Below, in pieces: positions 21,898 to 28,611 of a stretch of DNA of 47,301 nt. Location of the stretch: NCBI GenBank assembly GCA_903928075.1, contig CAIYPD010000114.1:1-47301 (forward strand), read 5' to 3'. Within the stretch, counting starts at the first letter, position 1. Each line of letters begins with the position of its first letter. The notes beneath the pieces are model-generated. The model worked only from the letters and a program-made list of their open reading frames with translations. It had not been told where the DNA came from and made no database searches. The position numbers were made by a program, and so were the translations under genes. Source of the DNA: Candidatus Firestoneibacteriota bacterium (GTDB taxonomy: Bacteria; Oederibacteriota; D2-FULL-39-29).

Positions 21898-23784
21898 TTG
21901 GAATTAAAAGATAAAAGTAATTATGCTTTGTCGCCTTATACGGGTTATACAAGGGAAAACTGGATTGAGCTTACCGCAAAAATTATTGCCGGTTTCATGC
22001 AGCATGCGAATCCAAAAACCGGCGTATTAACTTTAACCGGAAATCCTGAAGAAACGAGACTTCATAGGCAACTCAAAAATCCCGGTAGTTTTGTTGAAGC
22101 GTTCGAGAGGACCCATATGGCGGTGGCTGCCTATATTGCGGCGACGGGCAAGACCACAGTAGAGGGCTACCCCGGGGATATCGGAGAAATATTCAGGAAG
22201 GGAATGGCTACTTTCACTGACCCTAAAAACCCGTATGCTCCAAATTACAAGAAAGGCCAGTCTTTTGGCACCGGAACTGTAATTGCAATGTTGCTGGCGC
22301 CGGAATATTTTTTAAAGCCTTTATCGAAAGAAGTCAGGAAAAATCTGGCGGGTCAGCTTACGCATATAATTTCCAGGCAGCAAAATGATACTAATACGCT
22401 TCTTTTCTCAATGCTTCCTGCGGTTATAATGGACAGGCTCGGAGAAAAATATGACCGTGAACTTCTTGACGATTATTTTGACAGGATTTTGGGAATGTAT
22501 TGCGGTGACGGCTGGTTCATCGACGGGTGGAACCGGGGATTTGATCATTACAATTTCTGGGGATTTCAGTTTTATCTGCATTTGCTTGTTTCGCATGATA
22601 AGAAATGGGGTAAAAAGTACAAAGAGCGGATCAGAGAAATAACAGAAAAACATGAAAAGACCCTTCTTTTTTATTTTGGAAAAGACGGCGGGCCCGTCCC
22701 GAAAGGCAGGTCGCTTAATTATCGCTTTGCCTGTGTCTCCGGTATAGGGGCGGCGCAAATTTCCGGGCTTTCTTCGCTGGACCCCGGAGTTGCGCGGCGT
22801 ATCAGTTCGGGGGCTTTAAAATATTTTTGGGATAACGAGTGTTTAAGCAGCAGAGGTTTAATTGAGGCGGGGTTCAGGGCGAGTAATTCCTGTGTTGGCG
22901 AGGATTATACGGATTCCGGGGCGCCTTACTGGTCTGCCACAGGTTTAATTTCCCTTGTTTTGTCAAAGGCTCATCCCTTTTGGACGGCAAAAGAAAAACC
23001 GGCTATGGCAGACAAGACCAGAGTCAGCCGCTGCCCGGTTCGCGGAGCAAATCTGGTTTTAAAAGCAGACGGCAGGCGCGGAGAAGCGAAAATTCATTCT
23101 GCAGGAGAAATATTTAAACATCGCAGAGTATGGCAGGCCGGAAGCAAGTATTTTCAGCATACTTATTCTTCCACCGTGGGATATGCGCTGTCAGGGGATT
23201 TAGGAAGAGAACTTGCCGCAGGCCGGACCGGTATTTCCCGGGATAAAAAGCACTGGAGTTTAAGGACCTGGCCGAGGGTTATAAGCCTTGACGAAAAACA
23301 TTTGCTAAGTGAATGGGACTCCTGGCCCGGTTTAAGCGGCGAAACAGGAACGGTTGTTACAGAAACATTTATCCTGGATGACGGCGAAGTTCATGTCTTC
23401 TGGCATACTTCAAAAAAACCAAAATATTTATGTATCGGCGGGTACGCGGTTCAGGTTTCTCATATAGAAAAGCCCGAAATAGACTGTTTCAAAAACGAAA
23501 TTGAAATAAAAAGTGCGTTAATGTGGTCAAAATTGAAAGTTGTTTTAGGCCCTCCGGGCCGGCTCGAAGCGGAGGAGGTAAAACCCGCTAAAGGTTTTAA
23601 GCATTCTCATATTTTTGAGGGCTGGTCGGTCTTTACAAAATGGACAAGTAAATTGCCGGTTGCTCCGAATAAAAAAGTCGTTGTCTGGGTCGATGCTGCC
23701 CGCAGGAAGGAAGTTCCGGCAACAGCAGCCTGTCCGGTTAGTATAAAAATTGACGGAGACAATATAAAAATAATACCCGGATGA
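21898..23784 (+). CDS. DUF2264 family protein
   Basis: 628 aa. The N-terminal two thirds is an alpha/alpha-toroid (SPYTGYTRENWIELTAKII, NPKTGVLTLTGNPEETRLH, PGSFVEAFERTHMAVAAYI, DGWFIDGWNRGFDHYNFW, FWGFQFYLHLLV). The C-terminal third is beta-rich. This is the DUF2264 layout seen in polysaccharide-utilisation settings, and a glycan-related enzyme is likely though unproven. No signal peptide, so cytoplasmic. Likely TTG start at 21898 after AGGGGAATAA; no better start is close. Confidence 0.75.
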   Translation: MELKDKSNYALSPYTGYTRENWIELTAKIIAGFMQHANPKTGVLTLTGNPEETRLHRQLKNPGSFVEAFERTHMAVAAYIAATGKTTVEGYPGDIGEIFRKGMATFTDPKNPYAPNYKKGQSFGTGTVIAMLLAPEYFLKPLSKEVRKNLAGQLTHIISRQQNDTNTLLFSMLPAVIMDRLGEKYDRELLDDYFDRILGMYCGDGWFIDGWNRGFDHYNFWGFQFYLHLLVSHDKKWGKKYKERIREITEKHEKTLLFYFGKDGGPVPKGRSLNYRFACVSGIGAAQISGLSSLDPGVARRISSGALKYFWDNECLSSRGLIEAGFRASNSCVGEDYTDSGAPYWSATGLISLVLSKAHPFWTAKEKPAMADKTRVSRCPVRGANLVLKADGRRGEAKIHSAGEIFKHRRVWQAGSKYFQHTYSSTVGYALSGDLGRELAAGRTGISRDKKHWSLRTWPRVISLDEKHLLSEWDSWPGLSGETGTVVTETFILDDGEVHVFWHTSKKPKYLCIGGYAVQVSHIEKPEIDCFKNEIEIKSALMWSKLKVVLGPPGRLEAEEVKPAKGFKHSHIFEGWSVFTKWTSKLPVAPNKKVVVWVDAARRKEVPATAACPVSIKIDGDNIKIIPG

Positions 23785-23852
23785 GCGAGCTATAGATCTT
23801 CAACAAATGGCTTTAAGGTAAACTTCTGTTTAAGTTTTAGTAGAAAAACTGG

Positions 23853-23858
23853 TACAAT
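23853..23858 (+). promoter_or_regulatory. possible -10 element before the folded RNA
   Basis: TACAAT at 23853-23858 stands alone; the best -35 candidate (ttaagt at 23830-23835) is weak. A transcript from here would start at about 23865 and run into the structured RNA after about 20 nt of flanking sequence. Confidence 0.35.
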
Positions 23859-23883
23859 ATTTTAGAGTAGCTTAATTTTATGA

Positions 23884-24157
23884 AAATACCGGTGTTCTTC
23901 CGGTGCCAGCGTCGACCGGATTGTTTTCATTTTGATTCGGGCTCGCGGCCGGGAGAAACACTGGTTGTTCTATCGCGAGCTCCCTGTTTATTATGCCGGC
24001 GGTTTTGAAAACCATGGGCGTTCGAGCCCGTGGATGAAAAAACCGCGATAAATGTCGCCTCTTCTCATAAGAGGATTCCAAAGGAGGATACTCCTTTGGC
24101 TTGGGTGATAACACAAGTTAAAAAGACGCCACGTCCGTGAGGGCGTGGAGTTTCACT
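23884..24157 (+). ncRNA. highly structured RNA, HEARO/omega-RNA-like, without an adjacent nuclease gene
   Basis: This stretch has no credible protein but at least seven perfect or near-perfect hairpins in series. ACCGG/CCGGT lies at 23888-23904 and GCTCGCG/CGCGAGC at 23941-23980. GCGGTTTT/AAAACCGC (23999-24046) encloses CCATGGGC/GCCCGTGG (24012-24033). CCTCTT/AAGAGG lies at 24058-24074, CCAAAGGAG-GATA-CTCCTTTGG at 24078-24099, a bulged cttgg hairpin at 24100-24117, and CCACGTCC-gtga-GGGCGTGG at 24129-24148. It begins right after ATGA (23880-23883), the flank described for HEARO elements, and ends with a hairpin like the right end of IS200/IS605-type elements. No IscB or other HNH gene is present. 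Family assignment is inference from memory of the class. Confidence 0.5.
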
Positions 24158-24175
24158 TTGCCCGGAGAATAAAAA

Positions 24176-24784
24176 ATGGAACTGAAGAGCGAATACGAAT
24201 TACCCCGCTGGGCCCCGCGGCTGACAAAAGAGCAGATTAGGAAGTTATATACCGCTTGCGGCAAGGGTATTTTGGATGCAGAGCTTATTGATGATGCCGG
24301 CTTCTCTCTTTATGCCAGATGTGAAAGCATGCTTGAAGTTGATAAAGCGGTTTTTGGCAAGCCCATCTGTCCCAAATGTGAAACCGCGGTAGAAAAGAAA
24401 GGTGCAGAGCCGTCAATGCTTATCTGTCCGGTTTGCGCCTGGAAATGCCCGGAGAAAATATATCATAAAACATACAAACACAAAAATCTTTCCCCGGGCG
24501 GTATGAAGGGTTTTATTACCGTCTTTGTCGGGAAGTTCAAAAAAACACATTCGCATGCCGAACGCCTGGTACTTATAGATACGCTGATACATCAATTCCA
24601 TTGGGCCTCCGGCAGCGGCCGGCCTGCCGCCGTCAATTTCATTGAAGGCACAATGAAAGATATAATGCCGTTTTTAGATAGTTTAAGTTACGGGGATAAG
24701 ATACCCGCGGATATTAAACAAAAGCGCGCGGAGTGGCGAAAATTGTGGCAGAATAATCCCTGGTCCCGGGGCAGGGGGCAGTAG
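24176..24784 (+). CDS. conserved zinc-ribbon protein of unknown function
   Basis: 202 aa beginning MELKSEYELPRWAPRLTKEQ, with a treble-clef/zinc-ribbon made of CPKC and CPVC (PICPKCETAV...MLICPVCAWKC) near residues 64-84, then YHKTYKHKNL and a helical C-terminal part (LIDTLIHQFHWASG, GRPAAVNFIEGTMKDI, FLDSLSYGDK). I know this arrangement as a conserved uncharacterised family; it is not an HNH nuclease. Directly downstream of the folded RNA but probably unrelated to it. A CAGGGG/CCCCTG hairpin overlaps its stop (24772-24790). Confidence 0.7.
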   Translation: MELKSEYELPRWAPRLTKEQIRKLYTACGKGILDAELIDDAGFSLYARCESMLEVDKAVFGKPICPKCETAVEKKGAEPSMLICPVCAWKCPEKIYHKTYKHKNLSPGGMKGFITVFVGKFKKTHSHAERLVLIDTLIHQFHWASGSGRPAAVNFIEGTMKDIMPFLDSLSYGDKIPADIKQKRAEWRKLWQNNPWSRGRGQ

Positions 24785-27921: not shown

Positions 27922-28611
27922 ATGCCAAGAATAGCTAGAATAACAGAATTGGGAATGCCGCACCATATAACACAACGCGGGAACTATAGACAGCGGGTTT
28001 TTGAAAAGAATGAAGATTTTGAGAAGTATGTCGAATTAGTTAATGAATGTAGCGGAAAGTTTGGTTTAAAGATCCTTGCCTATTGCCTGATGAATAACCA
28101 TGTTCACTTTGTAGCCATTCCAACGGAAAAAGAAGCGCTTGCCAAAACATTTAATACTACGCATATGAGATATGCGCAATATTGCAACAAGAAAAAGAAA
28201 GTATGCGGGCATCTATGGCAGGGGAGGTTCTTTTCAAGTATATTAGATGAACAGTATTTGCTTGAAGCTGTGCGTTATGTGGAAAGAAACCCGGTAAGAG
28301 CAAAAATGGTAAAAAAAGCATGGGAATGGAGATGGTCTAGCGCAGGAGTGCATGTAGGAAAAAAAGAGTCAGATATTAATTTGTCACAGAATGCTTTTTT
28401 AAAAGAAGTAATTAAAGATAATTGGAAACAATACATTTCTCAAAAAGACGATGAAAAGTATACCGAAGAGTTAAGAAGACTGACAAGAATAGGCAGGCCT
28501 TTTGCAGGGGAAAAGCTGCTAGACAAACTTGAAGAAAAGCTTAAAATAAAAATACGACCAAATCCAAAAGGCCGTCCAAAACAAAAGAGAGTCGATAATG
28601 ACATTAAATAG
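27922..28611 (+). CDS. REP-associated tyrosine transposase (Y1/IS200-like, RAYT)
   Basis: 229 aa. Opening PHHITQRGNYRQRVF, then YCLMNNHVHF, the His-x-His metal motif of HUH enzymes, HLWQGRFFSS, and AVRYVERNPVRAKMV with the Tyr nucleophile region, followed by WEWRWSSAGVHVG. These single-domain enzymes cut and rejoin single-stranded REP-like hairpins. The C-terminal Lys/Arg-rich tail extends to the stop, which overlaps the right repeat. Flanking perfect inverted repeats make this a self-contained element. Confidence 0.92.
   Translation: MPRIARITELGMPHHITQRGNYRQRVFEKNEDFEKYVELVNECSGKFGLKILAYCLMNNHVHFVAIPTEKEALAKTFNTTHMRYAQYCNKKKKVCGHLWQGRFFSSILDEQYLLEAVRYVERNPVRAKMVKKAWEWRWSSAGVHVGKKESDINLSQNAFLKEVIKDNWKQYISQKDDEKYTEELRRLTRIGRPFAGEKLLDKLEEKLKIKIRPNPKGRPKQKRVDNDIK

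Follow-up and report, generated by a model that had tools for sequence, protein, structure and literature searches.

A very probable PATE, a non-autonomous IS200/IS605-type element with a conserved internal structured module, in a Candidatus Firestoneibacteriota bacterium

A densely folded non-coding stretch in a 47,301-nt piece of DNA from a Candidatus Firestoneibacteriota bacterium (this whole piece is called the window below) contains what is very probably a PATE (palindrome-associated transposable element), a non-autonomous, non-coding element of the IS200/IS605 type, at 23992-24156. PATEs are elements related to IS605-type transposons (PMC3119063; also PMC7290912). By definition they have palindromes close to their termini but no inverted repeats there, leave the target unduplicated and are of a length that makes them non-coding (PMC3119063). 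We make the assignment because the target pentanucleotide, the near-terminal palindromes, the missing duplication and the lack of an ORF fit this published definition. The element is thus an ordinary kind of object, a member of a bacterial PATE family, and the residual interest lies in its conserved internal module. The features of the element and its flank are collected in Table 1.

Table 1. Features of the element and its surroundings (positions within the window).
Feature	Position	Strand	Evidence
Single-copy flank outside the element, holding the ATGA of the preliminary description	23880-23986	+	No convincing match in the own genome or relatives
Target pentanucleotide TTTAT, left of the element	23987-23991	+	Aligned copies; empty sites join here
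Element, 165-nt very probable PATE, TATGC...GTTTCAC	23992-24156	+	Sharply bounded copies in unrelated surroundings; empty sites of other copies
Left-end palindrome, GCGGTTTT/AAAACCGC around GAAAACC-(CATGGGC..GCCCGTG)-GGATGA	23999-24046	+	
Internal structured module, CCTCTT..AAGAGG, ATTCC, GATA-loop hairpin and second hairpin	24058-24117	+	Model R2
Hairpin S4, CCAAAGGAG-GATA-CTCCTTTGG	24078-24099	+	Both-side changes in 5 of 9 pairs
Hairpin S5, CTTGGGT-GATA-ACACAAG	24100-24117	+	Compensatory variants among copies
Right-end palindrome, CCACGTC-CGTGAG-GGCGTGG	24129-24148	+	Both-side change in one copy
Right terminus GTTTCAC	24150-24156	+	Alignment boundary in copies; empty sites

The preliminary description had treated 23884-24157 as one folded unit. 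Folding of this stretch is indeed significant, with an MFE of -116 kcal/mol on the plus strand against -85.5 +/- 5.3 in 200 dinucleotide shuffles (z -5.77; 0/200 shuffles as stable) and a z of -3.8 against dinucleotide shuffles on the minus strand. The individual stems are also where they had been placed, including the 9-bp stem of 24078-24099, which has a GATA loop, and the hairpin enclosed by GCGGTTTT/AAAACCGC (23999-24046), while the hairpin at 24129-24148 does resemble IS200/IS605 ends. As a unit, however, the stretch proved composite, the real one being 23992-24156, 3' of TTTAT. When the genome was searched by BLAST with 23860-24160, other copies aligned only from query base 127 (23986-23987) onward, and 23800-23990 had no convincing match elsewhere in the own genome or in eight relatives. 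The 107 bases of the flank at 23880-23986 are unrelated to the element and form a long hairpin of their own, folding to -41 kcal/mol. A second TTTAT (23877-23881) precedes this long imperfect hairpin, and the TTTAT of the element follows it. Possibly 23877-23986 is a Y1-type element in its own right, older than the PATE and unrelated to it, whose right end received the PATE; we found no second copy of it.

Dense hairpins, an upstream ATGA and an IS605-like right end had suggested a solo HEARO (omega) RNA that guides IscB in trans, with its guide at 23864-23879, and IscB with HEARO is known to occur in this phylum (genome G009). Covariance model, gene and ATGA all spoke against it. The HEARO model (RF02033, Rfam gathering threshold 83 bits) gave no match at E<=10 in 23780-24200 and none in the whole own genome, and no Rfam family matched the region at its threshold. 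This negative result is informative because the model does recognise a true HEARO RNA in G009, next to an IscB gene (136.4 bits; locus L133, positions 2097-2317). The IscB domain (PF14239) was absent from G000-G008, which include the own genome (G000) and its family mates, and exceeded the cut-off only in G009. The ATGA at 23880 falls in the unshared flank, the copies having TTTAT at 23987 in common instead, and the supposed guide is likewise outside the mobile unit, in sequence that differs between copies. We consider an IscB guide RNA here to be extremely improbable, and an attractive reading is thereby corrected.

The own genome carries five near-full-length copies of the element, on contigs C114 (the window), C37, C35, C54 and C131, as well as a decayed copy on contig C20. 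Its genus mate G001 (Cand. Firestonebacteria) has one near-full-length copy, and the family mate G002 has six plus several truncated ones. The flanks of the near-full-length copies in these three genomes are unrelated to each other, and alignment of the copies with their flanks places the boundaries sharply: TTTAT (once GTTAT), then TATGC to GTTTCAC, then T. The span from TTATT to TTCAC is 169 nt in most undisrupted copies. TATGC at the left terminus and TTCAC at the right do not form an inverted repeat; palindromes lie near both ends instead (23999-24046 and 24129-24148). The inner stem of the left one covaries among copies, and the right one is altered on both sides in a G002 copy (CTACGTC/GGACGTAG; locus L039). 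At 165 nt the element is too short for a transposase, and none of its six frames holds a long open frame. In the C35, C54 and C131 copies, a 42-nt palindromic insert is found inside the left palindrome (the double palindrome CCCGCCCTTAAGCTTGGCGGGTAATTGTCCGCCTMAGGCGGA in the left palindrome of loci L003, L017 and L018), recalling the small mobile repeats of Haloquadratum whose targets are the palindromes of PATEs. Two G002 loci (L041 and L046) have a different repeat (GAGGCTGTGCCAAAAG...CTTTTGGCACAGCC) inserted within element copies.

Mobility is evident from empty sites. We joined the flanks of six copies, searched for them in relatives and found three contiguous empty orthologous sites. The G001 copy has its empty counterpart at G000:C118, where the sequence spanning the joint is 82% identical; for the C37 and C35 copies the empty sites are in G001:C12 and G001:C63, so presence and absence differ between genus mates. 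The joints read ..TAT/TC.., ..TTAT/TCC.. and ..TTT-TTTG.. (the slash marking the junction). Insertion is 3' of a TTTAT-like site, in keeping with the fixed 4-5 nt target of PATEs, and there is no target duplication. For the window copy we found no empty orthologue, and its flanks have no match in G001. Several copies (C35, C131, L040 and L140) sit exactly in the T-tract of an apparent rho-independent terminator. The earlier suggestion that the element is non-autonomous and has a right end like that of IS200/IS605 is supported.

These empty sites also bear on another conceivable origin of the region, either as an independent non-coding RNA of the host or as a gene in decay. The significant folding would suit such an origin, as would a short open frame (KRIPKEDTPLAWVITQ) that spans the module, but copies lie at unrelated places, orthologous sites are empty, and elsewhere among the copies the frame is broken by length changes that leave the stem intact. 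We judge this origin very improbable. We also considered the module as the 3' end of a gene, given a frame (KRIPKEDTPLAW...) that is continuous with an ORF in locus L140, and rejected it: that ORF is within an insertion, and other copies vary in module length with the stem retained. The insertion itself (L140, 1184-1510) is about 320 bp long, has inverted-repeat ends (GTAATAGTT...AACTATTAC) and an apparent 8-bp duplication (ACTTTACC), and interrupts a module-bearing element of G040.

By analogy with the IS200/IS605 mechanism, the PATE would move as single-stranded DNA through a Y1 (HUH) transposase supplied in trans. On the single strand, the enzyme would recognise the hairpin near either end and excise the element by cutting after TTTAT on the left and after TTCAC, the proposed cleavage site, on the right. 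Reinsertion would then take place 3' of a new TTTAT, frequently within a terminator's T-tract, and would leave the target unduplicated.

There are four Y1 transposase genes in the own genome, all encoding 190-235 aa. One is in the window itself (27922-28611), a RAYT-like gene (PF01797) flanked by the REP-like palindromes GGGACAGCGCCC / GGGCGCTGTCCC, with two copies downstream. A pattern search of the own genome and its nearest relatives, which are drafts (the own one in 148 contigs), found no Y1 or TnpB gene bearing the element's ends among the loci examined. Where flanking palindromes were visible beside the Y1 genes that we inspected, these were their own and different, mostly GGGACAG...CTGTCCC. 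We rejected the genome's Y1 genes as a linked transposase, having found no ends in common with the element; the mobilising enzyme may nevertheless be among these four, or its gene may have been lost or be missing from the assembly.

If RAYT enzymes mobilised it, the element would be a large REP/REPIN-like element. Those Y1 genes of the own genome and its nearest relatives whose whole length was read are RAYT-sized, including the one in the window, which would fit. However, the visible flanking palindromes are short, REP-like and unlike the element's ends, no element end occurs near any Y1 gene in the pattern search, and the RAYT flanks carry GGGACAG../GTGACAGTCACAG.. rather than palindromes identical to those of the element. 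We regard mobilisation by RAYT enzymes as a minor possibility.

The PATE belongs to a wider family. When 45 genomes of the phylum were scanned with a covariance model built from 12 copies (R1), relatives of the element turned up in 15 of them, many of these relatives being shorter (117-130 nt) and without the middle. The shorter relatives have a common plan of TTTAT, a left GAAAACC-hairpin-GGATGAA and, on the right, a hairpin that comes with either GGAGTTTCAT or an end resembling TTTAT, and this left-end arrangement is found again in distant elements. TTTAT too recurs in distant shorter elements of the order and phylum, a recurrence partly helped by the first five positions being within R1, although several matches deviate there. 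Blastn against plasmid and phage collections gave no useful match, and a pattern search of viral contigs did not find the element. A deltaproteobacterial MAG has a 25-nt exact match to the right end (CGTCCGTGAGGGCGTGGAGTTTCAC; L079, 856-880), and a pattern scan found the rest of the element absent beside it.

What distinguishes the window copy from these shorter relatives is the module at 24058-24117, which consists of AAGAGGATTCC and two hairpins. The preliminary description had proposed looking for covarying base pairs in relatives, and compensatory changes were found. For a six-helix structure on the 12-copy alignment, 12 cells had changed on both sides, compared with 3.0 +/- 1.4 after shuffling, and slid versions of the structure were all far worse than the true register. 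The GATA-loop stem S4 changed on both sides in 5 of its 9 pairs across 17 aligned copies (13 cells vs 3.5 +/- 1.5 shuffled). These counts are possibly inflated by the shared descent of the copies, although the slid controls are low. Hairpin S5, which has one mismatch in the window copy, occurs as CTTGGGT/ACCCAAG, CTTGGTC/GACCAAG, CTTGGGC/GCCCAAG and CTTGAGC/GCTCAAG. Searched for as a model of its own (R2), the module was present in 6 of 384 genomes, all from families f1, f13 and f14 of the phylum, inside elements whose ends differ and again with compensatory changes. A weak R2 match also lies at L145 (1440-1695, in G001) between a 21-nt copy of the 5' end of tRNA-Ser(GGA) and the tRNA-Ser gene (1607-1695), as if an element had duplicated the start of the gene. 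Since related elements without the module also spread, transposition does not require it, yet it is conserved. The module may be a decayed or still-used scaffold resembling that of a guide RNA, or only a hairpin of single-stranded DNA.

One proposal that is compatible with the PATE explanation, and adds to it, is that the PATE has kept, or is, a TnpB-type scaffold; the module and right hairpin would then be what is left of the 3' part of an IS605 element that once carried tnpB, and a TnpB might use the RNA in trans with a guide taken from just after 24156. The module covaries, is kept across three families despite different ends, and lies just inside the right end, the place of TnpB guide RNAs, in elements that can spread without it. 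TTTAT is moreover a known left-end motif and TAM of TnpB elements, described for solo-tnpB elements of Sulfolobus islandicus (PMC10640517), which speaks for the PATE reading as well, and some Haloquadratum PATEs are IS605 elements after internal deletion (PMC3119063). Against this, TnpB (PF07282) had no match above the cut-off in the own genome and family, so there is no tnpB at the right end, and two intact TnpB genes of the phylum (G018) have no module downstream. The module also has no Rfam match, and folding of single-stranded DNA explains hairpin conservation equally well. A TnpB scaffold is, on balance, unlikely.

It is alternatively conceivable, though we think decidedly unlikely, that selection maintains the module as a structured RNA or guide-RNA scaffold, travelling as a passenger on otherwise dissimilar miniature Y1 elements in the three families and acting in trans with a protein encoded by the host or by an element. 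If the module is indeed an RNA used in trans, the PATE would be carrying a guide-like RNA without its nuclease. Apart from the module, this work documents a family of mobile elements, its exact ends and its empty sites, from a candidate phylum that has been little studied.

Among known systems, HEARO, the omega RNA of IscB (RF02033), resembles the PATE in being a structured RNA-like stretch adjoining an IS200/IS605-type end, but the element fails its covariance model and has neither IscB nor a conserved ATGA. The REP/REPIN sequences of RAYT transposases are similarly palindromic, non-coding and intergenic and rely on a Y1-type enzyme in trans; the present element differs in its 165-nt length, two different ends and pentanucleotide target, and the RAYT genes carry other palindromes. 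The PATE-like element of Halanaerobium hydrogeniformans (PMC7290912) is likewise an ends-only IS605 derivative without a transposase; the genome that carries it also has the parent IS605, complete with tnpA/tnpB, whereas none was found here. The PATEs of Haloquadratum walsbyi (PMC3119063) differ from the present element in that ours is bacterial, has a conserved internal structured module and comes without a parental IS605 transposon among the genomes searched. In architecture the two are alike: both have palindromes near their ends, lack terminal inverted repeats and target duplications, and show a 4-5 nt target at the 5' end, a non-coding length and many copies, and in both, some copies carry small palindromic inserts in a near-terminal palindrome.
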